DNA of 64,000 nt from Paracoccaceae bacterium. GTDB taxonomy: Bacteria > Pseudomonadota > Alphaproteobacteria > Rhodobacterales > Rhodobacteraceae. The position numbers were made by a program, and so were the translations under genes. A model generated the notes under the pieces. That model was not told the origin of the DNA. It was given only the letters and a program-made list of their open reading frames with translations, and made no database searches. The DNA lies in assembly GCA_020446815.1 (NCBI GenBank), contig JAGRDY010000018.1, forward strand, positions 248,001-312,000, read 5' to 3'. This document shows, in pieces, positions 45,301 through 59,870 of this stretch; positions within the stretch are counted from its first letter, which is position 1, and each line of letters begins with the position of its first letter.

Positions 45301-45451
45301 AGATGATCATCACCTTGATGGAAAAGTTGGGGTCTTCCTCACGGCCGATGCTGATATAGGACAAGGCCCCGGCGATCAACGATACGATCATCAGGAACCA
45401 CACAAAGGAACGATGGTTCAGTGCCCAGTCCGACAGGTTGAAACGGCTCAT
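42386..45451 (-). CDS. RND-family efflux permease
   Basis: 1021 residues with the RND layout: 12 helices and two large periplasmic loops. The helix-4 region reads GALIIALGLLVDDAMIAIETM, with the proton-relay Asp pair of HAE-type pumps. The 1021-residue size fits. It works with the two adaptors downstream and an outer-membrane channel not encoded here. It overlaps the first adaptor gene by 4 bases (ATGA). It is similar to AcrB/MexF-type multidrug pumps; substrate unknown. Confidence 0.95.
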   Translation of the reverse strand: MSRFNLSDWALNHRSFVWFLMIVSLIAGALSYISIGREEDPNFSIKVMIISAALPGADVQDTLTQVTDRIEKKLADLDALDFTRSTTRAGQSTVYVELLPTTKARDLPQIWQTVRNMMADISPEFPREFAGFQFNDNFGDVFGNIYAFTSDGFSPREVRDYAERVRRAVQGLDDSGKVDIFGTRDEVIYLEFSTERLAALGLNQQAVQATLAAQNAILPSGVINAGPERVLVRVGGQFADTGSLEDINLRVGDRFFRLIDVADIRRGYDDPPKELFRWNGQEAVGLAVGMRKGANIIDFGAKLDEVMARAQADLPIGLQIHQVTDQPHVVDEAVGHFLRALLEAVLIVLAVSFISLGVRAGLVVTLTIPLVLAITFVVMHYSGFTLQRISLGALIIALGLLVDDAMIAIETMISRLEKGESRTKAASYAWTSIAFPMLSGTLVTVAGFIPIGLNSSRAGEFTFSLFVVIAVSLLVSWIVAVLFAPLIGVTLLPATMKHHSDVPGRFRRAFHMVLRAAMRFRWVTILLTVAAFGFSVFGMRFVEQQFFPNSDRVELLVDFALPQNASIEATRAQMDRLEAHLAGNDNVLYWSSYVGRGAPRFLLASDVAAPGVNTGQIVIQTPSVAARDALRAELNTIAGNEFPGVDIFVKLLEIGPPVGRPVQYRISGPDITTLRDRARDLTAVIASDDRLTKMVMNWNEPARVVRVDILQDKARQLGITSSDIATALNTIYDGTAVTQLRDAAYLVDIVARGDAAARQSVEALAGLQLSTPSGATIPLRSLATFRYETEQPEIHQRNRIPTITVKAAILGKDQPATIVNDLKGKIASFNATLPFGYKVEVGGAVEASADSQAPIAAVVPLMMLIMATLIMVQMQGFRLSFVVICVAPLGLVGVVAALVPSGAPLGFVAILGVLALIGILIRNSIILVHEIEVLREKGRSAWDAVFEASDSRARPILLTAAAASLALIPISRQIFWGPMAYAMMGGIIAGTVITLVFAPALYLAVFRVREPDPSAPAAGSD

Positions 45452-46509
45452 TGGCTCACCCGCGGGCCGACGACCTGGCCTTCTTGCAGGGAATGGACGC
45501 CCTTGACGATCACTTCGTCACCGGCAACCAGCCCGCTGGTCACGCGGACCTGCCCGCCGAAGCGCTCGCCAAGCCGCACCGGGGTCAGCGAAACCCTGCC
45601 GGAGCCGCGGTCCACGACCCAGACGGCGCTTTGCCCATCGTGTTCGACGACGGCGCCAAGATCGATGGCGACACCGGCATCCGGGCTGTCGGCCACGCTG
45701 ACACGCACCAGCGCCCCCAGCCGGAAACCGCCGGGCGGATTGGCCAGCGTCAGATGCACCCGCCGGGTGCGCGTGTCGCGATCGGCAACCGGGTCGATGC
45801 GCGTCAGGATGGCACGGGCGCTGATTGCGGCATTGGCGGCCAGTACGGTGGTGAACTCGGTGCCGATATCAAGCGCGGCAAGGTCGGCTTCGGCCAGGTC
45901 GATGACAACCTCGCGCTCATCGGTCGCGGCCAGACGCAGTACCGGCTGGCCTGCCGACAGGGCCGCACCCGGTTCGGCAAAGACATCTGTCACGATCCCG
46001 GCTTGCGGCGACCGCAGGTCGGCAAGGCTGCGCAGGTCGGCGGCGCGGGCCAGGCCGGCTTCGGCCTGGACCACGCGCGCCTCGGCGCCGGCCAGTGCGC
46101 GCCGGGCATCCTCAAGGCGCGTGTCGCTGCCCACGCCGCGGGCATTCAGCGCCTTGGCGCGCGCTTCGGCGTCGCGCGCCGAACGGAGCTGGGCCGCCGC
46201 CACGGCGACACCCGCCTCGGCGGCGCGTTTGTCGGCATCGAGAGTTTCCGGATCGAGCCGCGCGAGCATCTGACCCTCCGCCACCAGATCGCCGGTTTCC
46301 GCCGGACGTTCGGCCAGGATGCCCGTCAACGGGAACCCCAGGTCGATCTCGATCCGCGGCGCAACGGTGCCTGCATAGCTTGGCTGATGGCCGGATCGAA
46401 GGTTGACCAGCTCCGAGATGACCGGCCGGGGGGCGGTGTCAACCTGCGCCACGGCGTTTCCGGTACATACGGAAAGGGCGGCGAACGCGATCAGAACGGT
46501 TGCTTTCAT
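45448..46509 (-). CDS. RND periplasmic adaptor 1
   Basis: 353 residues. Signal peptide (MKATVLIAFAALSVCTGNAVAQ) then the adaptor plan: lipoyl half (DLGFPLTGILAERPAETGDLVAEGQMLARLD), alpha-hairpin coiled coil (KRAAEAGVAVAAAQLRSARDAEARAK...), second lipoyl half (LRSPQAGIVTDVFAEPG), beta-barrel and membrane-proximal domains. Start at 46509; upstream open frame is non-coding. Overlaps the other adaptor gene by 4 bases. Confidence 0.93.
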   Translation of the reverse strand: MKATVLIAFAALSVCTGNAVAQVDTAPRPVISELVNLRSGHQPSYAGTVAPRIEIDLGFPLTGILAERPAETGDLVAEGQMLARLDPETLDADKRAAEAGVAVAAAQLRSARDAEARAKALNARGVGSDTRLEDARRALAGAEARVVQAEAGLARAADLRSLADLRSPQAGIVTDVFAEPGAALSAGQPVLRLAATDEREVVIDLAEADLAALDIGTEFTTVLAANAAISARAILTRIDPVADRDTRTRRVHLTLANPPGGFRLGALVRVSVADSPDAGVAIDLGAVVEHDGQSAVWVVDRGSGRVSLTPVRLGERFGGQVRVTSGLVAGDEVIVKGVHSLQEGQVVGPRVSQ

Positions 46510-47561
46510 TGTCCGCCCTGCGCCTTGCGCACCACGCGCCCCGGAAACAGAAGCTGTGCGCCATCGGTGACCACCAGCGCACCGTCCTCCAGCCCGCCCG
46601 AAAGAATCATGCGCCCGGTCTCGAACCGGTCGATCGTGACCGGGTGCAGCGAGACGGCCATGGTTGCGGGATCTGCCAGCCACACCGCCGCGGACGTGCC
46701 GACCGCCGACAACGCTGTGTAAGGCAGCGCGATATGCGGCGCGCCATGGATCACCACCGTTCCGCGCACCGCCTCGCCAAAATCGAGATCCTCCGGCGGG
46801 TTGGTGATGCCGACCGTCACCGCGACCGTGCCCGAACGAGCATCCACCAGCGGCGATATTTCGCGGATGATGCCGCTGAAGGTCTGATCGGGGCTGTCGA
46901 GAAGGTTCAGCGTCACGTCGGGCGGCGGCGCATTGCTGGCCAGCAACACCTCGGGAACATCGAAAACCGCGTCGATGCCGTCGCCCAGGGCCATTTCCAT
47001 CACCGGCTGCGCCGCGCCGACAACCTGCCCCACCTCGATCATCCGCGCGGTGATCGTGGCATCCATCGGCGCCAGAAGCACGGTATCGGCCAGGGCTTTC
47101 TTGGCGCGATCGAGATCGGCGCCAGCCTGGGCCAGCACGCCTTCGGCGATCCGCAGGGCATCATCGGCGCTGTCGCGGGCGATGCGCGTCGTGGCGCCGC
47201 GTTCGAGCAAGGCATCCTGCCGGTCGAGATCTTCGCTGGCCTGACGGTGATCGGCCATCGCCGTGGCAAGCCCGGCCTGGGCGGCGCGTAACGCCTGTTC
47301 CTGCTGCACCGCGTCAATGCGGGCAAGCTCCGTGCCCTGTGCCACCCGGTCGCCGACATCGGCCAGAACCGCCGCGACGCGCCCGTCGGTCGGAAAGGCG
47401 GCGCTGAGCCTGTCGCGCGCGACGACCTCGCCGGTCAGCGAATAGGTCCGGCTGTCGGCGGTCGCCATCGCGCTCACGATATCCACGGCAAGGGGTTGCT
47501 CCGCCCAGGCGGGCGCCGCCCCCAGGGCAAGTATTGCGACAACGATGCGGAGCACGGGCAT
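46506..47561 (-). CDS. RND periplasmic adaptor 2
   Basis: 351 residues, signal peptide MPVLRIVVAILALGAAPAWAE, then the same adaptor domains: lipoyl (AAFPTDGRVAAVLADVGDRVAQGTELARID), hairpin (EQALRAAQAGLATAMADHRQASEDLDRQD) and barrel. First gene of the three-gene operon. It is a paralogue, not a copy, of adaptor 1. Two adaptors for one pump is common in alphaproteobacterial HAE-type systems, where they may form a heteromeric ring. Confidence 0.92.
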   Translation of the reverse strand: MPVLRIVVAILALGAAPAWAEQPLAVDIVSAMATADSRTYSLTGEVVARDRLSAAFPTDGRVAAVLADVGDRVAQGTELARIDAVQQEQALRAAQAGLATAMADHRQASEDLDRQDALLERGATTRIARDSADDALRIAEGVLAQAGADLDRAKKALADTVLLAPMDATITARMIEVGQVVGAAQPVMEMALGDGIDAVFDVPEVLLASNAPPPDVTLNLLDSPDQTFSGIIREISPLVDARSGTVAVTVGITNPPEDLDFGEAVRGTVVIHGAPHIALPYTALSAVGTSAAVWLADPATMAVSLHPVTIDRFETGRMILSGGLEDGALVVTDGAQLLFPGRVVRKAQGGQ

Positions 47562-48320
47562 GACAACATTTCTCCGGGTGCGGGGTATCGGGCGATGTTC
47601 CGGCCCGGCCAACGGTCTGGTCGGCCGTGCGATGGATCACCCTGCTTTCGGGCAGATTGGCCGCCTTGACCGAAAGGGTCAAGCAATCACGCCGCGTCAA
47701 AGACACTTTTGCGAAGCCAGGGGGAGGCGCGTGCCGCAACGCTGTGCGGATCGTTTACCCGCGCGAGGGGCCTGAGGCCCCGAAAACCATGATGCCGGGG
47801 TGGCTTGTCCACCCCGGCATCCTGTCGCGGCCGTTCTAACCGTCGACTACATGCCGACATCACCGTTACGCGAAAACACCAACCGCACTCGTTACCCGGC
47901 CAGAAACCTTCCTGATCGTCACAGCCGCCATTGGCCGGAAAAATCGGGCCAACTTGCGACCGCAATGTCTCGGAAACGGGAAGATTAGATGGCACGCTTT
48001 CGGGCGGCTGCTTTGCCTCGGGTTGTGGTCGTGTCGAATCCGGCGACAGTGATGGCGAGCGTCACGGCCATCGCCTTTGCTCCTTGTGCGGGCAGTGGCG
48101 ATTGTTGATGAAATCGACCGCGGCACTAACCTTTGACGCGAAGGGAAATAGGGCATTCCTGCCCGATTTTCTTTGTCGTCCTTCTGGAAACAAACCGTTT
48201 TCTGTTTTCAGGGTGATCGCTGCCGCAACGGTCTTGCATCCAACCGCGCGGCGGCGGCCGGGCACCGAACACGGGGCCGAGGCGGGTTTGCGAAGGGCCG
48301 GTGCCGCATGCGCAGGGCCG
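47562..48320. other. 759-base non-coding region with two strong hairpins
   Basis: Upstream of the RND adaptor operon and downstream of the LysR gene. Two hairpins lie at 47767-47781 (GGGGCC/GGCCCC) and 47791-47821. Small overlapping frames of 39 codons (47989-48108) and 86 codons (48108-48368) exist but have no family resemblance. The rest shows nothing recognisable. The RND promoter is probably close to 47600. Confidence 0.5.
47791..47821. terminator. 13-bp perfect hairpin
   Basis: GATGCCGGGGTGG (47791-47803) pairs perfectly with CCACCCCGGCATC (47809-47821), with a 5-base loop. It is more than 200 bases upstream of the RND adaptor start and 500 bases past the LysR stop codon, so its role is uncertain. 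A second small hairpin lies just before it. Confidence 0.6.
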
Positions 48321-49241
48321 CTATCCCGACGGCATCGCGCCGCCTTCCGCAGAGGCGAGGATCTGTGACCAGACCGACGCGGCCGCCGGCCCGCCATCGC
48401 CAAACAGCCTGACCGCCGTGACATCGAGCGGGTGACTGGGCAGGGTGGCGGAAAGATCGGCAAGAATGCCTCCCAGGATGCGCTTTCGGGCAAGCGATTC
48501 GGGCACCCATGCCACCGCGATACCGACGGCCGCCATTTCCAGCGCGGCCAGGGTCAGGGCGGTTTCGGCAATGGGGATGAGCCGGTGCATGGCATCCATC
48601 CGCGCCAGGATGAGCCGTTGCGTGACCTGGCCGAAAAACACTTCCTGCGGGTAGGCGATATAGGGCACCTCGCCACGGGCGATCCGCTGGCCCAGCCCGT
48701 CCACGCCGCTGGCCGCGAAAACCGGGATCAGCCGGTCGCTGCCGATCGTGGCGGTTTCGATATAGCCGGCGCTGATCGGGTGTTCTTCATCGCGGACGCG
48801 GTAGACAATGGCGATATCGGCCTGGCGCGACAGCAAGAGCCCGAAACATTCGTCGAGATTGGCCGATCTCAGCCGGGCAAAGATATATGCGTCGAACCGG
48901 TGAATGCCATCGAGCAGCGCCGGTGTCAGGGCGGTGGTCAAGGCGTGCTGGCTGGCGATCACCACGCGGTTCGAGGCGACGCGCGCATCAAGCCGAAGAT
49001 CGACGACCAGTTGGCGCAATTCGGTGGCGAGCCTTTGGATCTGTTCGCGCCTGTTGGCGATGGCGGGGCGCAACTGGACCGGTTTGCGCGCCCGGTCAAA
49101 GAGTTCGACCCCGACATGATCCTCGATGCTGCGAATCCGTCGCGAAAAGGCCGACTGTGTCAGAAGCCGCCGTTCGGCCGCCTCCTGAAAGGAACCGGTC
49201 TCGGCGACGGCAAGCATGTCTTCCAGCCATTCCAGCCGCAT
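48321..49241 (-). CDS. LysR-family transcriptional regulator
   Basis: 306 residues with the N-terminal winged helix-turn-helix (MRLEWLEDMLAVAETGSFQEAAERRLLTQSAFSRRIRSIEDHVGVELFDR) and the periplasmic-binding-like effector domain. Divergent from cuyA with a LysR box between them, so it very likely controls cuyA and the following transport and dehydrogenase genes. Effector perhaps a C3 sulfonate. The longer upstream frame is non-coding. Confidence 0.9.
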   Translation of the reverse strand: MRLEWLEDMLAVAETGSFQEAAERRLLTQSAFSRRIRSIEDHVGVELFDRARKPVQLRPAIANRREQIQRLATELRQLVVDLRLDARVASNRVVIASQHALTTALTPALLDGIHRFDAYIFARLRSANLDECFGLLLSRQADIAIVYRVRDEEHPISAGYIETATIGSDRLIPVFAASGVDGLGQRIARGEVPYIAYPQEVFFGQVTQRLILARMDAMHRLIPIAETALTLAALEMAAVGIAVAWVPESLARKRILGGILADLSATLPSHPLDVTAVRLFGDGGPAAASVWSQILASAEGGAMPSG

Positions 49242-49256
49242 CGGCGCCTTCCTAAA

Positions 49257-49271
49257 ATGCAATACCTGCAT
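49257..49271. promoter_or_regulatory. LysR-type binding site (T-N11-A)
   Basis: ATGCAATACCTGCAT is a 5-bp inverted repeat around a 5-base centre, with T at 49258 and A at 49270 (T-N11-A). It is 15 bases upstream of the LysR start and 82 upstream of the cuyA start, suited for both autorepression and activation of cuyA. Confidence 0.6.
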
Positions 49272-49353
49272 ATTACATGGAGAATTATGAATTTGCACCA
49301 CGAAATCCGACATGCAATTGTCAATTTCATCAAGTTTCCAGAGGATTCCCCCC

Positions 49354-50376
49354 ATGCACCTTGCCCGCTTTCCGCGCGTTTTCCTTGCCCATCTGCCGAC
49401 CCCGCTTGAAAAACTCGACCGTCTCAGCAAAGAGTTGGGGGGGCCGGAAATCTGGATCAAGCGCGACGACTGCACGGGGCTCTCGACCGGCGGCAACAAG
49501 ACGCGAAAGCTGGAATTCCTGATGGCCGAGGCGCAGGCGATGGGTGCCGATACGGTGATGACGCAGGGGGCCACGCAATCCAACCACGCGCGCCAGACGG
49601 CGGCCTTCGCGGCCAAGCTCGGCATGGCCTGCCAAATCCTGCTCGAGGATCGCACCGGCTCCAACGACGCCAACTACAACACCAACGGCAACGTCCTTCT
49701 CGACCATCTGCACGGGGCCACGACCTCGAAGCGCAAGGGCGGGATGGACATGCAGGCCGAGATGGAGGCGGTGGCCGAAAAGCTGCGTGCCGAGGGCCGC
49801 AAGGTCTATGTCATCCCCGGCGGCGGCTCGAACGCGACCGGCGCGCTCGGCTATGTCAACTGCGCCTTCGAGACGGTTTCGCAGGCCAACGACCGGGGCC
49901 TGGTGATCGACCATTTCGTCACCGCGACCGGCAGCGCCGGCACCCAGGCGGGCCTCATCACCGGGCTGAAGGCGATCAACGCGGGCATTCCGCTCACTGG
50001 CATCGGGGTGCGCGCGCCCAGGGAAAAGCAGGAAGAAAACGTCTACAAGCTGGCGCTCCAGACCGCCGAAAAACTCGGCTGCCCCGGCGTTGTGGCGCGC
50101 GAGGACGTGGTCGCCGACAGCAGCTATGTGGGCGAGGGCTACGGCATCCCGCGCGCCGACACGCTCGAGGCGATCCGCATGTTCGCCCAGCTCGAGGCGA
50201 TCCTTCTCGATCCGGTCTATTCGGGCAAGGGCGCGGCCGGGCTGATCGACTATTGCCGCAAAGGCAAGTTCAAGAAGGGCGAGCGGGTGGTCTTTTTGCA
50301 CACCGGCGGCTCTGCCGCGCTGTTCGGCTACAATGCCGCCTTCGCCGACGACCAGAAATCGCTGGCGGCCGAGTAA
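49354..50376 (+). CDS. cuyA: L-cysteate sulfo-lyase
   Basis: 340-residue PLP enzyme of the D-cysteine desulfhydrase/ACC-deaminase fold. It starts [22 protein letters not shown] and has the PLP lysine region [12 protein letters not shown] (44-55) and [11 protein letters not shown]; from memory it closely resembles CuyA of Ruegeria pomeroyi (HLPTPLERLDRL...). CuyA splits L-cysteate to pyruvate, sulfite and ammonia. First gene of a run with racemase, TauABC-like transporter and HDH-family dehydrogenase. SD GAGGA is 8 bases upstream of the ATG. D-cysteine desulfhydrase activity is the alternative. Confidence 0.88.
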
Positions 50377-50481
50377 ACGCATGGCAACACCGGGGCACAG
50401 GAAAAAACTCACGCAACTCCGGCCTGCGGCTTTGGCGATGAAACGCGCCGCCGGCCGCAACGCCGCAGTCCGCGTGCGGGG

Positions 50482-51267
50482 ATGCGCCCCATGATGCGGC
50501 GCGTGGGCATACTTGGCGGCATGGGGCCGCAGGCGACGATCCTGATCATGCAGAAGATACTGGACGCGACCCGGGTCCGGGACGACGCCGATCACATTCC
50601 GCTGATCGTCGATCAGAACCCGCAGGTGCCGTCGCGCATCCGGCACCTGATCGACGGCACCGGCGCCGATCCCGGCCCGGTACTGGCCGACATGGCCCGC
50701 CGTCTCGTGGCCGCCGGGGCCGAGGCGCTGGCCATGCCCTGCAACACCGCGCATCATTATGCGCCCGCGATCCGTGCCGCGGTCGATGTCCCCTTGCTGA
50801 ACATGGTCGATCTTGCCGTCGCCCGCGCCGCGGCGCTGGCCGGCCCGGGCAGCCCTGTCGGCATCCTCGCGTCACCGGCGGTCCGCAAGGTGGGCCTGTT
50901 CGACGCCGCGCTGTCGCAACGCGGCTTGCGGGCGGTCTACGCGCCCGACGAAGCCGCGATGCTGGCCGCAATTCGCCAGATCAAGGCTGACGGCCCCCGG
51001 CCCGAAGCGCGCCGTGCGCTGCGGGCGGCGTCCGCGGCGCTGGCGGCACAGGGGGCAACGGTGCAGATGATCGCCTGCACCGAATTCTCGCTGATCGCGG
51101 AAGCTGTTGACAAAACTGCCGCGACTTTCGACAGCATGGACTGTATAGTGCAGGCGATAGTCACATTTGCCAGGAAATCTCCGAATAAAGGAGCCAACGG
51201 GCATCGCGCGCCCGCGCCAAAGTTAGCGAAACGCCGATCCAACCCAACAATGGAGGAAAGAAGATGA
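50482..51267 (+). CDS. Aspartate/glutamate racemase-family protein
   Basis: 261 residues. Two catalytic cysteines fit the family: C87 in AMPCNTAHH and C199 in MIACTEFSL; GILGGMGPQAT opens the domain. Such enzymes invert alpha-amino acids without cofactor. Next to cuyA a cysteate racemase role (D- to L-cysteate, an aspartate analogue) is attractive. It has a C-terminal tail (from ~240) rich in basic residues. It ends in a 4-base overlap with the transporter gene. The start could also be 50494. Confidence 0.85.
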   Translation: MRPMMRRVGILGGMGPQATILIMQKILDATRVRDDADHIPLIVDQNPQVPSRIRHLIDGTGADPGPVLADMARRLVAAGAEALAMPCNTAHHYAPAIRAAVDVPLLNMVDLAVARAAALAGPGSPVGILASPAVRKVGLFDAALSQRGLRAVYAPDEAAMLAAIRQIKADGPRPEARRALRAASAALAAQGATVQMIACTEFSLIAEAVDKTAATFDSMDCIVQAIVTFARKSPNKGANGHRAPAPKLAKRRSNPTMEERR

Positions 51268-52256
51268 CCTCAATACTCAGAAAGACGATGCTGCTGGCGG
51301 CCACCGCCATGACCCTGACGGCGGGTGTGGCCAGCGCTGAAACCCTGGTGATCGCCACCTTCGGCGACCCGACACCGATGAATGCCGCGCGCGCCAACCA
51401 TGAATTCGAGAAGGCCACCGGCTGGACGGTCGAGTGGCGCAAGTTCGCCTCGGGCACCGATGTCATCGCGGCGATGGCGTCGGGCGATGTCAAGGTGGGC
51501 GAGCTTGGCTCCTCGCCGCTGGCCATCGCGGCAAGCCAGGGTGTCGAACTGAAGATGTTCATGTTCTCCTACGTCATCGGCGATTCGGAGAGCCTGATCG
51601 CGCGTGATGGCTCCGGTATCGAGAAGATCGAGGATCTCAAGGGCAAACGTGTCGCGGTGCCGGTCGGCTCGACGGCGCATTTCTCGCTGATGGGGGTGAT
51701 CAACCATGCCGGGATGGATCCGTCCGACGTGACCATCATGTCGATGCCGCCCGACCAGATCGCCGCCGCCTGGGAACAGGGCACCATCGACGCGGCCTTC
51801 ATCTGGCCGCCGGTCCAGTCCGAGATCCTCAAGACAGGCAAGCGTATCGTTTCCGCCAAGCAGGCGGGCGAATGGGGCTATCCGACCTTCAATGGCTGGG
51901 TTGCCAGTGACGATTTCATCGCCGGTCACGAAAAGGAACTTGTCGCCTTCGCCAAGGCGATGGATGCCGCGAACCTGGCCTATGTGAACGATCCGGCGGC
52001 CTGGACCCCCGACAGCACGCCGGTCAAGGAAATCGCCGAGATGACCGGCGCCTCGCCGGATCAGATCCCGGTGACGCTCGAAGGGTACACCTTCATCCCC
52101 CTCAAGGATCAGGTCAGCGACAAATGGCTGGGCGGCGCCGCGGCGTCGATCAAGGCCACGGCCGAATTCCTGAAATCGGCGGGGCGCATCGACAATGTCG
52201 CCGACGACTATTCTGGCTTCGTCGATACCGAGATCGCGAAAGAGGCGCTGGAATAA
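51264..52256 (+). CDS. tauA: Taurine/sulfonate ABC transporter, substrate-binding protein
   Basis: 330 residues with a signal peptide (cleavage after ASA, ~25). The binding-domain pattern LVIATFGDPTPMNAARANHEFEKATGWTVEWRKFASG and WPPVQSEILKTGKRIV is like TauA/SsuA-type proteins. Periplasmic; delivers an organosulfonate to the permease. SD GGAGGAAAG precedes the ATG. Clustered with a permease and ATPase and with cuyA, so taurine itself is less certain than a C3 sulfonate. Confidence 0.85.
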   Translation: MTSILRKTMLLAATAMTLTAGVASAETLVIATFGDPTPMNAARANHEFEKATGWTVEWRKFASGTDVIAAMASGDVKVGELGSSPLAIAASQGVELKMFMFSYVIGDSESLIARDGSGIEKIEDLKGKRVAVPVGSTAHFSLMGVINHAGMDPSDVTIMSMPPDQIAAAWEQGTIDAAFIWPPVQSEILKTGKRIVSAKQAGEWGYPTFNGWVASDDFIAGHEKELVAFAKAMDAANLAYVNDPAAWTPDSTPVKEIAEMTGASPDQIPVTLEGYTFIPLKDQVSDKWLGGAAASIKATAEFLKSAGRIDNVADDYSGFVDTEIAKEALE

Positions 52257-52320
52257 ATGAGCTGCCCTGCCCGGCCACCGCTTGGCCGGGCAGGTTCCGC
52301 GATGGCCAGGGGAGGGGTTC

Positions 52321-53112
52321 ATGCGCCTGAATATCAAAAATGTGTCGGTGGTGTTTCCCGCCACCGGCGGCCGGCCGCCCGTCGAGGCGCTGAGCCGCAT
52401 CAACCTGGCTATCGAGGATGAGGAATTCGTCGTCGCCCTCGGCGCCTCGGGCTGCGGCAAATCCACGCTTCTGAACCTGATCGCGGGGTTTCTCGCGCCC
52501 TCGTCGGGCGATCTGACGCTGGATGCGGCCCCGGTCGCCGGCCCCGGCGCCGACCGTGCGGTGGTCTTTCAGAAACACGCGCTGCTGCCCTGGCTCGATG
52601 TGCTCGACAATGTGGCGCTGGGGCTCAAGATCCAGGGTGTCGGCGCGGCCCAGCGCCACGAAACAGCCAACCGGTTCATCGAATTGCTGGGTCTTGACGG
52701 GTTCCAGAAGTCACCCGTCTACATGCTGTCGGGCGGTATGCAGCAGCGCGTCGGCATCGCCCGCGCGCTGACCTGCGACCCCAAGATCCTCTTGATGGAC
52801 GAACCGCTGGGCGCGCTCGACGCGCTGACGCGCGAAAGGGCGCAGGAACTGATCCTGAACATCTGGAACGATACCCACAAGTCGATCTTCTTCATCACCC
52901 ACAGTGTCGAGGAGGCACTGTTCATGGGCACCAAGCTGATCGTGATGTCGCCGCGCCCGGGCCGGATCACCCATACCTTCGATCTGCCCTTCTCGAAAAA
53001 GTTTCTGGCAGGCGAACCGGCGCGCCAGGTCAAGGCTTCGGCCGACTTCATCCGCCTGCGCGAAGAGGTGTTGAAAATCATCTTTGCCGACGAAGAGGAA
53101 GCAGTAGCATGA
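52321..53112 (+). CDS. tauB: Sulfonate ABC transporter, ATP-binding protein
   Basis: 263 residues. Walker A GASGCGKST, ABC signature LSGGMQQR, Walker B ILLMDEP and the H-loop region FFITHSVEEALFMG are present. TauB/SsuB-like. Its ATG follows AGGGGAGGGG, and its stop overlaps the permease start by 4 bases. Confidence 0.93.
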   Translation: MRLNIKNVSVVFPATGGRPPVEALSRINLAIEDEEFVVALGASGCGKSTLLNLIAGFLAPSSGDLTLDAAPVAGPGADRAVVFQKHALLPWLDVLDNVALGLKIQGVGAAQRHETANRFIELLGLDGFQKSPVYMLSGGMQQRVGIARALTCDPKILLMDEPLGALDALTRERAQELILNIWNDTHKSIFFITHSVEEALFMGTKLIVMSPRPGRITHTFDLPFSKKFLAGEPARQVKASADFIRLREEVLKIIFADEEEAVA

Positions 53113-53978
53113 CCGACGCAAAATCCGCCGCACCGCCAAAGGCCGATGGCCTGCTGTCGCGCCTTTCGCGGGGGCGGGCGACGAAACCGGGCGAAATCTA
53201 CGGCGTGCCGGGGCAGGGCAACACGCTGTGGCTGTCGGCGGTGTCGATCGCGCTTTTCCTCTTCATCTGGTGGCTGGTCACGGCGATGGGCTGGGTCAAG
53301 CCGCTTTTCGTGCCCTCGCCGATGGCGATCGTCAGCAAGTTCATCCAGATCTGGAACAACGGCTTTACCGGCACGCCGTTTCTGGAACATGTGATGATCT
53401 CCACCGTGCGGGTGTTCGGCGCCTTCCTTCTGGCCTGCGTCATCGGCCTGCCGCTCGGCCTCGCGATGGGGATGAGCCCGGCGGTGCGCGGCATCTTCGA
53501 TCCGCCGATCGAATTCTACCGCCCGATCCCGCCTCTGGCCTACCTGCCGCTGATGATCATCTGGTTCGGTATCGGCGAGACCTCGAAAATCCTGCTGATC
53601 TTCCTGTCGGTTTTCGCCCCGGTGGTGCTGGGCGCGCGCTCGGGCGTGAAATCCGCCGCGATCGAACAGATCCACGCCGCCTATTCCTTCGGAGCCACCC
53701 GCTGGCAGGTGATGCGCCATGTCATCATGCCCTCGGCGCTGCCCGAAATCCTGACGGCGATGCGCATCGGCATCGGCTTCGGCTGGACCACGCTCGTCGC
53801 CGCCGAGATGGTCGCCGCCACCAAAGGGCTTGGCTACATGGTGCTGTCGGCCAGCCAGTTCCTGCAAACCCCCGTCGTCATCATGGGAATATTCGTGATC
53901 GCCATCATCGCCTTTGCCTTCGACCTGCTGATGCGGTTCCTCGAAAGGCGCCTGGTGCCCTGGAAGGGCCGCATGTAA
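53109..53978 (+). CDS. tauC: Sulfonate ABC transporter, permease
   Basis: 289 residues with about six helices; the cytosolic EAA-like loop reads EQIHAAYSFGATRWQVMRHVIMPSALPEILTAMRIGIG. TauC/SsuC-like. Translationally coupled to the ATPase. Sits between the ATPase and the HDH-family gene, 16 bases before the latter. Confidence 0.93.
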   Translation: MTDAKSAAPPKADGLLSRLSRGRATKPGEIYGVPGQGNTLWLSAVSIALFLFIWWLVTAMGWVKPLFVPSPMAIVSKFIQIWNNGFTGTPFLEHVMISTVRVFGAFLLACVIGLPLGLAMGMSPAVRGIFDPPIEFYRPIPPLAYLPLMIIWFGIGETSKILLIFLSVFAPVVLGARSGVKSAAIEQIHAAYSFGATRWQVMRHVIMPSALPEILTAMRIGIGFGWTTLVAAEMVAATKGLGYMVLSASQFLQTPVVIMGIFVIAIIAFAFDLLMRFLERRLVPWKGRM

Positions 53979-53994
53979 CCGGAAAGCCAATGCC

Positions 53995-55305
53995 ATGAAA
54001 TATCTCAAGAAAGCTGCCCGCACCGCCGAGGCGGAACAGACCGATGTCCGTGCCGTCGTCGAAAGGATGCTGCACGAAATCGCCCAAGAAGGCGAAGTGG
54101 CCGCGCGCCGCCATGCCCGCGATCTGGACAAATGGGACGGCGACATCGTCGTCACCGACGCACAGCGCAGGGCGGCGGCGGCTTTGGTTCCGGCGCAGCT
54201 CAAGGCCGATATCCGTTTTGCCCATGACAATGTGCGCCGTTTTGCCGAGGCCCAGCGCGCGACCGTCAGCGATTTTTCCGTCGAGATTCTGCCCGGCCTG
54301 ACAGCCGGACAGAAACAGATCCCCGTCACCGCCGCGGGCTGTTATGTTCCCGGCGGGCGCTACAGCCATGTGGCCAGCGCGATCATGACCGTGACGACGG
54401 CGAAGGTCGCGGGGGTGGCCCATATCGCCGCCTGCTCGCCGCCGCGCCCGGGCATCGGCATCCCGCCCGCGATCCTCTATACGCTCGATCTGTGCGGCGC
54501 CGACGTCATCCTCAACATGGGCGGCGTGCAGGGCGTCGCGGCCATCGCCAACGGTCTTTTCGGCACGCAAAAGGCCGACATCCTTGTCGGCCCCGGCAAC
54601 CAGTATGTCGCCGAGGCCAAGCGGATGCTGTTCGGGCAGATCGGCATCGACATGTTCGCAGGCCCGACCGACAGCATGGTCATCGCCGATGACACGGCCG
54701 ATGCCCAGTTCATCGCGGCCGATCTTGTCGGGCAGGCCGAACACGGCTGGAACTCGCCGGTCTGGCTGGTCACCTCTGACGCGGGGCTGGCCGCGCGCGT
54801 GATCGCGCTCGTCCCCGAACTGATCGACACGCTGCCCCATGTCAACCGCGACAGCGCCCGCGCCGCATGGGCCGATTTCGCCGAAGTCATCCTGTGTGAC
54901 AGCGCCGAGGAAATGGCCCGCGTCGCCGACGATTACGCACCCGAACATCTGCATGTGCAGGCCGCCGATCTCGACTGGTGGCTGGGAAGATTGCGCTCCT
55001 ACGGCTCGCTTTTCCTGGGCGAGGAAACCACCGTGGCCTTCGGCGACAAGACCTCAGGGCCCAATCATGTGCTGCCGACATCCAAGGCCGCGCGCTATAC
55101 GGGCGGTCTGTCGGTGCACAAGTTCATGAAAACGGTGACCTGGCAGCGCGCCACCCGCGCCGCCGCAAAGCCGCTGGCCGAGGCCACCGCGCGCATATCG
55201 CGGCTCGAAGGGATGGAGGGCCATGCCCGGTCGGCCGATATCCGGCTGGCCAGGTTCTTTCCCGACGAGGTGTTCGACCTGCAAGCCGCCGACGCCGCAT
55301 CCTGA
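53995..55305 (+). CDS. Histidinol-dehydrogenase-family enzyme (HpsN-like; candidate cysteinolate/DHPS dehydrogenase)
   Basis: 436 residues, full-length HisD fold. Zinc and catalytic residues are kept: Q247 and H250 (GQAEHG), E317-H318 (APEHLH), D351 (DKTSGPNHVLPT) and H410 (EGMEGHARS). HisD itself oxidises an amino alcohol to an amino acid in two NAD steps. Here the operon with cuyA and TauABC points to a sulfonate. HpsN converts dihydroxypropanesulfonate to sulfolactate; oxidising cysteinolate to cysteate would be the direct analogue of the histidinol reaction. Not a his-operon gene: no his neighbours. Confidence 0.85.
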   Translation: MKYLKKAARTAEAEQTDVRAVVERMLHEIAQEGEVAARRHARDLDKWDGDIVVTDAQRRAAAALVPAQLKADIRFAHDNVRRFAEAQRATVSDFSVEILPGLTAGQKQIPVTAAGCYVPGGRYSHVASAIMTVTTAKVAGVAHIAACSPPRPGIGIPPAILYTLDLCGADVILNMGGVQGVAAIANGLFGTQKADILVGPGNQYVAEAKRMLFGQIGIDMFAGPTDSMVIADDTADAQFIAADLVGQAEHGWNSPVWLVTSDAGLAARVIALVPELIDTLPHVNRDSARAAWADFAEVILCDSAEEMARVADDYAPEHLHVQAADLDWWLGRLRSYGSLFLGEETTVAFGDKTSGPNHVLPTSKAARYTGGLSVHKFMKTVTWQRATRAAAKPLAEATARISRLEGMEGHARSADIRLARFFPDEVFDLQAADAAS

Positions 55306-55414
55306 ACCCGCAGGCGCGCGCCGGGCAGGGTTGTGCCTTGCGCTTGCATCGAAGCGGCAGGCATCGTTTATCGCCTTTGGCCGAAGGAAAAGCCAACGCC
55401 CAAGCGCCAGAGGG

Positions 55415-56890
55415 TCAGGGCGCAACGCTATTTGCGGCGCGCTGCCCCTTTTCCCCCGCCTTGGGGTGGAAACGAGCATGCGCGTGATCGGCGACATAAT
55501 CGCCAACGTAATCCGTGGCGTTCCGGGCAAGGCTGTCGACCGCGTCAATCACCAGGCTGGCCTTTTCATCGCTCATCAGTGCCGACAGGTTCAACCGCAC
55601 CCAGCCGGGTTTTTCGGTTTCCGCATGGGCAAGGATAGCATCCAGCACATCTTGCGATGCGTTCCTGCCCAGGCCCAGCAGGCGGTGCGCATAGGAACCC
55701 GCGCAGGCACAGCCGCCGCGCGCCTGAACGCCGTGCAGATCCGACAGGAGCCGGGTGAAAAGCTGGTGACGCACCCGGCCGCCCCGCCCGTCGCGCACCA
55801 GAAAGGAAAAGATCGGCAGGGCCCGGGCGCCGCGCGCGCCCAGCAGTTCAAGATTGGGATTGCGCGACCAGACCGCAAGCGCCCGCGCCCGCAGATCGTC
55901 CTGCCGCGCTGCCAGCCATTCGTCGCCCAGGGCCTCCTTGATCATCAACACGAGCCCGGCGCGGATATCGCCGATCACGTTGGGCGTGCCGCCTTCTTCG
56001 CGGTCCTGCAACCGGTCCGAATAGATATGCCCCCAGGGCGACACGAAGGAAACCGTGCCACCGCCGGGCAGCGTCGGGGTGCGGCGCCGCGCGATCGCAT
56101 CGCGCAGGATCATCACGCCCGAGGCCCCCGGCCCGCCGGGAAACTTGTGCGTCGAAAAGACCACTGCGTCCTTTTCGGCGTCGGTGCCGCTGTTCATCCG
56201 CATCGGCAAGTACGGGGCGGCGCAGCCATAGTCCCAGACCGCCAGCGCGCCATGACGCTTCAGCAGCCGCGTCACCGCGACATCATCGGTAATGATGCCG
56301 GTCACGTTCGATGCCGCGCCGAACGCGCCGACGATCAGGCCGGCGCCCTGTGCATCGCGCAGCGCGGATTCGAGCGCGCCCAGAACCGGCCCGCCTTCAG
56401 GGGCTTCGGCGATCTCGATCACCTCGGCGCCGCTTTCGCGCCACGGCAGCAGGTTCGAATGATGCTCATAAGGCCCGACAAGAACGACGGCGCGCTGCCC
56501 CGACGCCAGAACATTGGGAATGTCTAGCAGCATCACGATCCGGTTCAGGCCCGCCGTCGACCCGGCGCCGGCAAAGATCACCGACATGCCGTCGCCCGCG
56601 CCGGTGATGCGCGCGATCTCGGCGCGCAGTTCCTCGCGCAAAAGCGTCATGAAGGCACCGCAATAGGATGCCTGGGTATGGCTGTTCGCGTAATAGGGCA
56701 GCACCTTTTCAAGGATCAATGTCTCGACCTGGCGCAGGGCGCGCCCCGAGGCGACATAATCGGCGTAGATCAACGGTTTCCGCCCATACGGCCCGTCGAC
56801 CGTCGCCGTCTCGCCGATCAGGTCCGCGCGCAGCGCACCCGGCAGGTCAGGCGTTTCGAGCCATTTGCGGAATTCATCGAGAACGGTCAT
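55415..56890 (-). CDS. Class-V aminotransferase-fold PLP enzyme (NifS-like, uncharacterised clade)
   Basis: 491 residues, longer than SufS/NifS. The PLP lysine is in STHKFPGGPGASGV and the aspartate in AVWDYGCAAPYLP. A Cys-rich segment RGGCACAGSYAHRLLG sits at the place of the desulfurase cysteine loop. So it could be a desulfurase/lyase or a transaminase. It diverges from an Lrp regulator, and its transcript runs toward the HDH gene end. It may act on a sulfur amino acid; this is inference. Confidence 0.75.
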   Translation of the reverse strand: MTVLDEFRKWLETPDLPGALRADLIGETATVDGPYGRKPLIYADYVASGRALRQVETLILEKVLPYYANSHTQASYCGAFMTLLREELRAEIARITGAGDGMSVIFAGAGSTAGLNRIVMLLDIPNVLASGQRAVVLVGPYEHHSNLLPWRESGAEVIEIAEAPEGGPVLGALESALRDAQGAGLIVGAFGAASNVTGIITDDVAVTRLLKRHGALAVWDYGCAAPYLPMRMNSGTDAEKDAVVFSTHKFPGGPGASGVMILRDAIARRRTPTLPGGGTVSFVSPWGHIYSDRLQDREEGGTPNVIGDIRAGLVLMIKEALGDEWLAARQDDLRARALAVWSRNPNLELLGARGARALPIFSFLVRDGRGGRVRHQLFTRLLSDLHGVQARGGCACAGSYAHRLLGLGRNASQDVLDAILAHAETEKPGWVRLNLSALMSDEKASLVIDAVDSLARNATDYVGDYVADHAHARFHPKAGEKGQRAANSVAP

Positions 56891-57119
56891 CTTGGCTCCT
56901 CTCGCCGGTTCGCAACCGGTCTGCACCATTGCCCGGCAGCAACATCGCCCTTGCCTTGCCGCGAAATCCGGCGGATCCGATCGGATTTCCCGGATTTCGC
57001 GAAGCGCGCTGGCCCTGCCTGTCCCGGCGCCCGTATTACCTGCGGTTGCCGTTGTGGAAGATTGACACATAAGATACGATATTTCATTACGATAATACTG
57101 CATCTTTTTGCCTGAATTC

Positions 57120-57131
57120 TATCATATGATA
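57120..57131. promoter_or_regulatory. Palindrome upstream of the Lrp gene
   Basis: TATCATATGATA is a perfect 12-base palindrome that ends on the first base of the ATG at 57131. The 240-base region between the two divergent genes is AT-rich at its right end (GATACGATATTTCATTACGATAATAC). Consistent with an Lrp-type site, but the Lrp consensus itself is not exact. Confidence 0.45.
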
Positions 57132-57607
57132 TGCTGATGACCTTGAAACTGGATCAAATCGACCGCCGTATCCTGGAAGAGCTTCAGCGCGATTCATCGC
57201 GCTCCCAGCGTGAACTCGCCGATCGGGTCGGATTGTCGCAGAATGCCTGCTGGCGGCGGTTGAAGGCGCTCGACAACGCGGGCGCGATCCGCAGCCGGAC
57301 GGTTGTTCTCGACCGTGAAAAGGTTGGCGCCGGGCTGGTCGTGATCATGATGACCCGGACGCGCCACCATTCCGCGAACTGGCTGGAAGCGTTTCGCAGC
57401 CATGTCGCCGCAATCCCCGAAGTGGTGGATTTCTACCGCATCGGCGGCGACTACGATTACCTCATCAAGGTGGTGACACGCGACATGGCCAGCTATGACG
57501 CCATCTACCGCCGGCTGATCGCCCGCGTCGAACTGGAGACGGTCACATCCTATTTTTCCATGGAGGCCATCGTGGAACAACGGCCCATCGCCCTGTCACG
57601 GCAATGA
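57131..57607 (+). CDS. Lrp/AsnC-family regulator
   Basis: 158 residues. N-terminal HTH (IDRRILEELQRDSSRSQRELADRVGLSQNACWRRLKALDNAGAI) and RAM/AsnC effector domain (VVIMMTRTRHHSANWLEAFRSHVAAIPEVVDFYRIGGDYDYLIKVVTRD). It likely responds to an amino acid and controls the divergent class-V enzyme. ATG at 57137 (MTLKLD) is an alternative start. Confidence 0.92.
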   Translation: MLMTLKLDQIDRRILEELQRDSSRSQRELADRVGLSQNACWRRLKALDNAGAIRSRTVVLDREKVGAGLVVIMMTRTRHHSANWLEAFRSHVAAIPEVVDFYRIGGDYDYLIKVVTRDMASYDAIYRRLIARVELETVTSYFSMEAIVEQRPIALSRQ

Positions 57608-57694: not shown

Positions 57695-59509
57695 TCATGC
57701 CGATTTGACCACCCTTACCCCGGCCTGTTCGGTCATCATCACCTTGTTCAGCAGCTTGACGCAGGCATAGACCGCCTTGATCGACGGTGCCGGCGTGGCG
57801 GTCAGTTCCGCCATTTCGAGGATCGACCCGACCAGCGCTTCGGTCTCCAGCGACCGGCCCACCTCGACGTCCTGCAACATCGACGTCTTGTGCGCGCCGA
57901 CCGATTCGGCGCCGGCGATGCGCTTTTCGATCGACACCCGGAACGTCACGCCCAGCTTGTTGGCCACGCTCTGCGCCTCGGCCATCATGTCGGCGGCCAG
58001 CGCGCGGGTTTCGGGAAACTGGCAGATCGCCGCCAGCGTGGCATGGCTCAGCGCGCTGATCGGGTTGAATGACATGTTGCCCCAGGCCTTGAGCCAGATT
58101 TCCGCACGGATATCGTCAAGCACGCGGGATTTCAGCCCACCCGACACCAGTACGTCATGCACCCACTTGACCCGCTCCGTCGTGGTCCCGTCCAGCTCGC
58201 CGATGGGAAAGCGGTCGCCCTCGACATGCTGGATCACCCCGAATTCACGCACCCCCGCCGCCGGATAGACCACCGCGCCGAGGATGCGCTTCGGATCGAT
58301 CTTGCTGCCCAGAAGCCCCGACGGATCGAGGCTGTCCATCCGGTGCCCGTCAAAGGCGCCCCCGAGACGCTGGAAATACCACCAGGGCATCCCGTTCTGT
58401 ACCGGCAGGACCATCGTGTCCTCGTGCATCATCTTCTCGATGTCGCGCACCACACCTTCGAGATAATGCGCCTTCACCGCCAGGATGACCAGATCCTGCT
58501 CGCCGGCCTCGGCGGCGCTGGCCACCGCCTTGACCCGCGACACGATCTCGGTTCCGTCGTGCCAGATCAGTTTCAGGCCATTTTTGCGGATCGCCGCCAG
58601 ATGCGGGCCCATGTCGATGACCGTCACGTCATGCCCGCCGGTGGCGATTTTCGCCGCCATCAGCCCGCCGATCGCCCCCGCGCCGATCACGCAGACGCGC
58701 ATCGGCCTGACCGCTTCGCAATACCGGAACGGCACCTTCTGAACGAAATGATTGGTCAGCGTGCCGATACCGTCTATGGAAATCTCGATCCTGTGCGACG
58801 CCTCGCGCATCGCACCGACGCCGACCGAGGTGCCGCAGGCCACCACGTCGCCGGGCATCAGCGTCATGTCCTGCGACAGCCGGGCGATCAGCTTTTCGGG
58901 GGGAAAGAACATGTCGGCCACCGGATAGTTCTGGCGTTCCTTGCCATTCACCACGGTCCTGATCCGCAGCGACATCGGGTCGAGCCCGGTGGCGATGACC
59001 GGGCCGAAGGCGCCGAAACTGTCGAAACTCTTGGCGCGCGCCCATTGCGGGAAACTCGGATCCTTGTTGAGAATGTCCTGCGCGGTCACATCGTTGATGC
59101 AGGTATAGCCAAAGATATGCGCGGCCGCTTCCGCCTCGGTGATATTGGCGCAGCGCTTGCCGATGACGATGCCAAGCTCGCCCTCATAGACGACATTGCC
59201 GGCATATCCCTTCGGGCGGTGAATCTCCTGCCCGTCGGCGATGAAGGCATTCGGCGCCTTGAGGAAATACAAGGGATCGGCGGGCCGTGTCGTGCCGATC
59301 CTGGCGGCCAGTTCGTGAAAATTGTTCCAAAGGCAGATCATCTTCGACGGCTGGCAGGGGGTGAGCAGTTCGACATCGGCCAGTTTTACCGTCGCGCCGG
59401 TCGGCTCGGCGGCGCCAAACATGTCGCCGGAATGAACCGCGATGCTGTCGCCGTCCAGAATGCCGAAGCCTTCGCTGCCGCCTTGCGAATATCTGAGCCA
59501 ATGTGCCAC
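57695..59509 (-). CDS. Fusion: fumarylacetoacetate-hydrolase domain + ketopantoate-reductase-type domain
   Basis: 604 residues in one frame. Residues 1-~258 are a FAH-fold hydrolase with metal ligands E109, E111 (YEGELGIVIG) and D140 (CINDVTAQD). Residues 270-604 are a complete PanE/ApbA-type reductase: Rossmann GAGAIGG (276-282), then EIWLKAWGNMSFNPISAL with the catalytic Lys and Asn. Start GTG at 59509 has AAAGG 7 bases upstream; an ATG at 59560 is the alternative. The join is a short linker ending in Met270, so a former separate start is likely. It may make and cleave a 2-keto acid. Same direction as the following oxidase cluster but separated by 361 bases. Confidence 0.8.
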   Translation of the reverse strand: MAHWLRYSQGGSEGFGILDGDSIAVHSGDMFGAAEPTGATVKLADVELLTPCQPSKMICLWNNFHELAARIGTTRPADPLYFLKAPNAFIADGQEIHRPKGYAGNVVYEGELGIVIGKRCANITEAEAAAHIFGYTCINDVTAQDILNKDPSFPQWARAKSFDSFGAFGPVIATGLDPMSLRIRTVVNGKERQNYPVADMFFPPEKLIARLSQDMTLMPGDVVACGTSVGVGAMREASHRIEISIDGIGTLTNHFVQKVPFRYCEAVRPMRVCVIGAGAIGGLMAAKIATGGHDVTVIDMGPHLAAIRKNGLKLIWHDGTEIVSRVKAVASAAEAGEQDLVILAVKAHYLEGVVRDIEKMMHEDTMVLPVQNGMPWWYFQRLGGAFDGHRMDSLDPSGLLGSKIDPKRILGAVVYPAAGVREFGVIQHVEGDRFPIGELDGTTTERVKWVHDVLVSGGLKSRVLDDIRAEIWLKAWGNMSFNPISALSHATLAAICQFPETRALAADMMAEAQSVANKLGVTFRVSIEKRIAGAESVGAHKTSMLQDVEVGRSLETEALVGSILEMAELTATPAPSIKAVYACVKLLNKVMMTEQAGVRVVKSA

Positions 59510-59870
59510 GGGGGAACCTTTCGTATCATGCGGGTGAATCTGGCGGCGACTATATGCCATTGTATACCGTGGCGCCAGAACGGCCGGCGCCGCCCGCCAC
59601 CCTGCCAGCGGCTCATCCGGCGCGGTGGCGCCCTGCCAGATGTTCGGATTAACCGGTTGATCTATCAGCTGAAATTCACCGCCCGCCAGCACCGTGGCCG
59701 GCGATTTTCAAATTTTTCAAGAGGGTCATTCTAATCCGTTTCGACCTTGTGGCAGCGGCTTTGACGTTCGGCTGGTTCCCGCGGCAGCCGACGACAAGCG
59801 GCAGCGGCGCAGAGCGGCCGGCAGGGCAGGGCGGGCCCGCGCCGGGTGGTCCGGCGCGCCCTGCGGCCCG
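59510..59870. other. 361-base gap without a gene
   Basis: Probably carries the promoter of the fusion gene. ATTGTATACCGT at 59559-59570 centres on GTATAC, the core of GntR-type operators. CGTTTCGACC at 59729-59738 resembles the start of the 6791 element but the rest is absent. A GC-rich stretch fills the right half. No reading frame looks coding. Confidence 0.4.

Follow-up and report, generated by a model that had tools for sequence, protein, structure and literature searches.

Which organosulfonate does a bacterium degrade with a gene block in which the cysteate genes cuyA and cuyB stand together with a dehydrogenase gene of the histidinol dehydrogenase (HisD) superfamily? Such a block occupies positions 48321-55305 of a 64-kb stretch of DNA from a Paracoccaceae bacterium, which is referred to as the window. 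Our sequence comparisons suggest that it is probably a catabolic operon for cysteinolate (2-amino-3-hydroxypropanesulfonate). In HpsN-type chemistry R-CH2OH becomes R-COOH, and the one-step precursor of cysteate is cysteinolate. The initial annotation had proposed import, oxidation to cysteate and cleavage by CuyA. This core is best supported, by gene neighbourhoods, the dehydrogenase tree and transporter residues, whereas the logic given for the racemase and the HisD type given to the dehydrogenase did not hold up. The cited papers were available in excerpts, to which all statements taken from them are limited.

Organization of the gene block

All seven genes listed by the initial annotation (LysR, cuyA, racemase, TauABC-like importer and HisD-family dehydrogenase) are present at 48321-55305:

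48321-49271, minus strand: LysR-type regulator with PF00126 (HTH_1) and PF03466 (LysR_substrate) domains, divergent from the operon; start at 49271 or 49241
49272-49353, no strand: putative control region in the gap that separates the divergent genes lysR and cuyA, placed from the gene positions
49354-50376, plus strand: cuyA, D-cysteate sulfo-lyase, a pyridoxal phosphate (PLP) enzyme of the PALP family; NCBIfam NF052482, 551.8 bits (cut-off 450)
50482-51267, plus strand: cuyB, cysteate racemase of the Asp_Glu_race family, adjoining cuyA; NCBIfam NF052483, 287.5 bits (cut-off 190)
51264-52256, plus strand: tauA-like periplasmic binding protein, NMT1 family; TIGR01729, 326 bits (cut-off 304.25)
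52321-53112, plus strand: tauB-like ABC ATPase, PF00005 (ABC_tran); best against TauB, NF008421, 324.9 bits (below the cut-off of 357)
53109-53978, plus strand: tauC-like permease, PF00528 (BPD_transp_1); best against TauC, NF007545, 320.4 bits (below the cut-off of 342)
53995-55305, plus strand: HpsN-type (HisD-superfamily) four-electron dehydrogenase, Histidinol_dh PF00815; proposed (R)-cysteinolate dehydrogenase, with catalytic and Zn residues kept and a place in the cuy-linked clade

The operon consists of six genes on the same strand (49354-55305), accompanied by the divergent LysR gene. Overlaps of 4 bases occur at cuyB/tauA and tauB/tauC, and gaps of 105, 64 and 16 bases separate cuyA from cuyB, tauA from tauB, and tauC from the dehydrogenase gene, respectively. 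As the block is syntenic in many relatives, its composition goes beyond chance; the LysR gene is also divergent from cuyA in many of them. A scan of 47600-55700 for sigma-70-like promoters gave one match (1.1 in shuffled sequences), which lies outside the lysR/cuyA gap at 49272-49353. Terminator-like sites numbered 11, against 6.8 (standard deviation 2.7) in shuffled sequences; neither they nor the promoter match were used as evidence.

The dehydrogenase is of HpsN type

The closest solved structures to the window dehydrogenase are those of HpsN, the 3-dehydrogenase of 2,3-dihydroxypropanesulfonate (DHPS), from Ruegeria pomeroyi (RpHpsN, 8wwe, 590 bits) and Cupriavidus pinatubonensis (CpHpsN, 8v35, 552 bits), and the best HisD structure reaches only 237 bits. 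The HisD model TIGR00069 also matches the window enzyme, with 425.6 bits at a cut-off of 243.8; judged by these scores, the model is unspecific for HisD. HpsN and HisD share the PF00815 superfamily. HisD takes an amino alcohol to an amino acid in two NAD-dependent steps.

We then compared the substrate-binding residues with those of HpsN and HisD. In CpHpsN, Zn is coordinated by His126, Gln248, His251, and His411*; upon substrate binding, Asp352 takes the place of His126, which then contacts the sulfonate, and catalysis is carried out by Glu318 and His319 (PMC11382572). The sulfonate-contacting His126 is absent from HisD of Mycobacterium tuberculosis (PMC11382572). All seven of these residues (His126, Gln248, His251, Glu318, His319, Asp352, and His411) are kept in the window dehydrogenase, as they are in 60 of 60 rows from cuy or taurine loci and in 56 of 56 rows of hpsO/hpsP type, the one gap being the truncated RpHpsN chain, which ends before position 411. 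The HisD encoded in the same genome has Tyr at Cp position 126, where the window enzyme has His. This difference, together with the higher scores against HpsN than against HisD, rules out a plain histidinol dehydrogenase, and the HisD type assigned by the initial annotation is to be replaced by the HpsN type. Since the HpsN residues including the sulfonate-binding His126 are kept, the window dehydrogenase very likely handles a sulfonate; the residues are silent on which one.

Neighbourhoods and phylogeny of the dehydrogenase

The gene neighbourhoods were compared in 141 loci including the window. The set contains the best 80 of at least 573 relatives, followed by stretches from the family of the window, 40 of them chosen for HpsN-like matches and paralogs and 20 for the presence of CuyA, so that its counts are not frequencies. 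Each stretch extends no more than about 10 kb on either side of the match, and some end at contig ends. The dehydrogenase occurs with cuyA and/or cuyB, and without hpsO/hpsP, in 61 loci, while hpsO and/or hpsP are present in 56. One of the latter (L148) also has cuyA and none has cuyB; hence a strict mutual exclusion of cuyA and hpsO/hpsP, which we considered, is broken by L148. Two loci (L152 and L153) have cuyA-cuyB without the dehydrogenase, and 18 were given no class. Four loci (L060, L064, L075, and L113) have taurine genes without cuy genes; in all four a Tau-type importer and xsc lie beside the dehydrogenase gene, and three also have a Tpa-like gene. Locus L148 contains hpsN-hpsO-hpsP, cuyA and a lactate-dehydrogenase-like gene, and looks like a DHPS-to-cysteate route in one locus.

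Removal of three near-duplicates left 58 cuy-linked loci. In 43 of them the dehydrogenase gene is placed after cuyB and in 13 ahead of cuyA; in one it precedes cuyB with cuyA not seen, and in one it follows cuyA with cuyB not seen. The window-type block was also seen in, among others, Cypionkella, Thioclava, Shinella, Ancylobacter, Paracoccus, and Tabrizicola. CuyA was found at E <= 1e-120 in 76 of 295 genomes of the family of the window. In at least 29 of these 76, counted by eye, a gene of this dehydrogenase family is at most about 6 kb away from CuyA; the DHPS-type L148 is among the 29. A gene for a DegT/DnrJ-type aminotransferase accompanies 20 of the 58 loci, either flanked by cuyA and cuyB or next to the dehydrogenase gene, and the window is without it. 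The copy in L006 (5303-6508) falls well short of all listed NCBIfam cut-offs; other carriers include L008 and L017. The gene has no obvious role in a simple cysteinolate route. It also occurs with an HpsN homolog in L046 and L079, whose stretches have no cuy or hpsO/hpsP genes.

The final dehydrogenase tree has 136 rows, five near-duplicates and the split L151 being left out. It places 57 cuy-linked, three taurine-locus and nine unlabelled rows in one clade (ultrafast bootstrap, UFBoot, 100; Shimodaira-Hasegawa-like approximate likelihood ratio test, SH-aLRT, 99). The clade contains no hpsO/hpsP row, RpHpsN being counted as such, and the label changes once on the tree. The window dehydrogenase sits in this clade and is not grouped with RpHpsN, while L148 falls with the DHPS rows. 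The long HisD branch carries the root, and a long basal branch is formed by CpHpsN. In a quick first tree of 119 rows, the hpsO/hpsP rows except CpHpsN already formed one clade (60 rows, five unlabelled), with the cuy-linked rows around it and not monophyletic; they became a single clade after 17 rows were added. The nine unlabelled rows, identified by elimination, are L005 (at a contig end), L048, L074, L093, L095, L097, L099, L115, and L123. L093 and L097 have a similar LysR-type gene in divergent orientation to the dehydrogenase gene, and so does L101. Thus the window enzyme shares its family and its catalytic and sulfonate-binding residues with HpsN, but belongs to a separate clade whose labelled members have no hpsO/hpsP in the loci examined, and its proposed substrate differs.

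Importer and cysteate-degrading enzymes

The best solved relative of the TauA-like protein is Escherichia coli TauA, in which Glu106, Thr132, and Asp205 hold the taurine amine and the Glu106Ala variant has no measurable binding (PMC6906117). The window protein retains two of these three amine ligands, Glu106 and Thr132, and has Asn in place of Asp205. A possible change at TauA Gln30 lies upstream of the aligned part and is given no weight here. In all 23 TauA proteins of such modules, Gly61, Gly79, Glu106, Thr132, and Trp176 are kept; position 205 is Asp in 16 and Asn in seven, the window included. The likeness to the taurine importer TauABC, seen in these residues and in a score above the TIGR01729 cut-off, is thus accompanied by a difference at position 205 in the window and by the replacement of Leu204 with Phe or Tyr in 23 of 23 module proteins. 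The importers recognized in cuy-linked loci are of Tau or ProX type. Four loci (L024, L029, L062, and L120) have a ProX-like binding protein instead of the Tau-type one; one of these proteins was scanned and scored below the NCBIfam cut-off. In R. pomeroyi, hpsKLM has been confirmed as the importer of DHPS (PMC10130141). Queries for DHPS-type TRAP genes matched 36 of the 56 hpsO/hpsP loci and not one of the 58 cuy-linked loci. Where an importer was recognized, its type is in keeping with a zwitterionic amino sulfonate.

L- and D-cysteate are converted into each other by CuyB, and CuyA prefers the D-form (PMC11382572), in agreement with the NCBIfam name D-cysteate sulfo-lyase. The initial annotation had these relations the wrong way round: it had CuyA cleave L-cysteate and took the racemase to make sense if the substrate were D-configured, when the racemase supplies CuyA with D- from L-cysteate. 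Given the NCBIfam names of CuyA and CuyB and PMC11382572, the presence of the racemase does not indicate a D-configured substrate. As CuyA prefers D-cysteate, a racemase is expected in a pathway forming L-cysteate. The window has the same lyase, racemase and LysR regulator as known CuyA/CuyB cysteate dissimilation, but has two additions, a TauABC-type importer and an HpsN-type dehydrogenase, which would start the route one oxidation before cysteate. Plain LysR-cuyA-cuyB loci occur among the relatives as L152 and L153. Because cuyA-cuyB is found there without the dehydrogenase, the latter looks like an extension by a single step, placed before cysteate.

The whole genome (3.47 Mb, 37 contigs, listed as 99.98% complete) has this one dehydrogenase, one HisD-like gene (contig C31), and one cuyA with a further fragmentary 30% match. 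Searches of the genome found no HpsO or HpsP ortholog; the best matches had 36% identity for HpsO and 34% over part of the query for HpsP, and the same queries reach at least 57% and at least 50%, respectively, within hpsO/hpsP loci. The best sulfolactate-dehydrogenase-like match in the genome is only 38%, and SuyB gave no match in a search that had no positive control. The set of HpsN, HpsO/HpsP, sulfolactate dehydrogenase and CuyA for DHPS was not found complete here. The statement of the initial annotation that no HpsO/HpsP, Xsc or Tpa genes are nearby is right for the neighbourhood. Genome-wide it fails for Xsc and Tpa, as xsc lies on contig C17 (locus L135) with genes for Tpa-like and TauR-like (MocR-type regulator) proteins. 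That locus, judged from its sequence, probably has TauE-like and pta genes too. No TauABC genes were seen in the 20 kb around tpa-xsc.

Proposed route and alternative explanations

On the proposed route, the TauABC-type importer with its amine-binding pocket would take up zwitterionic cysteinolate. By analogy with the HpsN mechanism, the dehydrogenase would hold the sulfonate and the 2-amino group on Zn and oxidize CH2OH to COOH with two NAD+, converting (R)-cysteinolate to L-cysteate. Judged by their families, CuyB would turn L- into D-cysteate, and CuyA would split D-cysteate into pyruvate, ammonia and sulfite. The LysR protein probably regulates the operon. L-cysteate, which is R-cysteate, occupies the R-sulfolactate site of CpHpsN, co-crystallizing in the product site as a weak inhibitor with an IC50 of 2.4 mM (PMC11382572). 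From this placement and the priority rules, (R)-cysteinolate is the expected enantiomer. With L-cysteate as the product, CuyB would be needed before CuyA. The DegT-type aminotransferase of some loci may add the 2-oxo analogue or the other enantiomer via transamination. An amino alcohol is within reach of one HpsN, as RpHpsN oxidizes L-histidinol, 691-fold less efficiently (PMC11131964).

Several observations weigh against the cysteinolate route. CpHpsN has no L-histidinol activity in the excerpts of PMC11382572. The HpsN active-site residues are identical in both clades and do not distinguish NH2 from OH at C2. The best clade-separating columns (Cp 48, 165, 381, and 142) fail as markers of cysteinolate or DHPS use, as at three of the four (Cp 48, 142, and 381) CpHpsN, a true DHPS enzyme, has the cuy-clade letter. 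Since CpHpsN branches at the base of the tree, DHPS oxidation may be ancestral. Some members of the clade (e.g. L093, L095, L097, L099, and L123) have no cuyA/cuyB alongside, and genomes G200, G073, G031, G270, and G049 (those of L093, L095, L097, L115, and L113) are outside the CuyA-positive set of 76, which a simple route does not explain. Among the 58 cuy-linked loci, about 26 showed no importer that our queries recognized. The window TauABC may carry taurine too, because the 20 kb around tpa-xsc are without TauABC.

The block might instead serve DHPS, with an ordinary HpsN forming R-sulfolactate from R-DHPS, enzymes encoded elsewhere (a sulfolactate dehydrogenase and an aminotransferase) leading on to L-cysteate, and CuyB and CuyA completing the route. 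All HpsN catalytic residues checked are indeed present, R-DHPS oxidation needs HpsN alone and not HpsO/HpsP, and a 'CuyA pathway' of DHPS has been described for R. pomeroyi (PMC11382572). L148 also holds hpsNOP together with cuyA in a span of about 7 kb, but its dehydrogenase groups with the DHPS rows. We regard this route as unlikely, given the Tau-type importer of the window, the missing HpsO/HpsP orthologs and the 38% sulfolactate-dehydrogenase-like match in the genome, and the separation of hpsO/hpsP from cuyB in all 141 loci. Alternatively, the operon may be one for cysteate and taurine whose dehydrogenase acts on another sulfonated alcohol, such as N-substituted cysteinolate or a longer, sulfonolipid-derived amino-alcohol sulfonate. 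TauABC is a generic amino-sulfonate importer; the DegT/DnrJ aminotransferases left over by the simple route would gain a place, and the four taurine loci, which have the dehydrogenase without cuyA/cuyB in the stretch (the L113 genome, G049, shows no CuyA), would be accommodated. An extended substrate, however, would not yield cysteate in one step, and the catalytic residues equal those of HpsN, a C3-sulfonate enzyme; we consider this explanation improbable. A biosynthetic direction, with the dehydrogenase reducing cysteate to cysteinolate for sulfur-containing aminolipids or as a solute, seems very improbable. Roseobacters contain cysteinolic acid, which is also the head group of their aminolipid, with its biosynthesis not established in the excerpts of PMC8319176 and PMC11631085, but HpsN chemistry is described as an oxidation to an unactivated carboxylate (PMC11382572), and the presence of importer and lyase genes in the same block suggests a catabolic role.

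Cysteinolic acid, a common sulfur compound of marine algae, is reported to be a widespread algal solute with intracellular levels in the DHPS range (PMC8703288) and to form the head group in an aminolipid of roseobacters (PMC11631085). The excerpts of PMC11131964, PMC8703288, PMC8319176, PMC4413178, PMC8027193, PMC9695272, and PMC11631085 name no catabolic genes for it. A literature search for names such as 'cysteinolate dehydrogenase' gave no match, though the route may already have been proposed in print. The operon offers a concrete three-enzyme route for cysteinolate, and marker genes that could separate its use from that of DHPS, which the database names 'histidinol dehydrogenase' and 'HpsN' blur; not every hpsN homolog should be taken as a DHPS gene. 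The cuy-linked HpsN clade may well be a distinct and widespread family of (R)-cysteinolate dehydrogenases that provides, with CuyB and CuyA, a main route by which bacteria consume cysteinolic acid derived from algae and from the aminolipids of roseobacters.

Flanking genes

Directly after the operon, a class-V aminotransferase gene (55415-57103, minus strand) adjoins a divergent gene for an Lrp/AsnC regulator (57131-57607, plus strand). It is followed by a 665-aa frame (57695-59692, minus strand) with fumarylacetoacetate-hydrolase (PF01557) and ketopantoate-reductase (ApbA) domains, which is either an unusual fusion or two genes in-frame. On the other side, positions 42386-47612 (minus strand) hold an RND efflux pump gene and two membrane-fusion protein genes.

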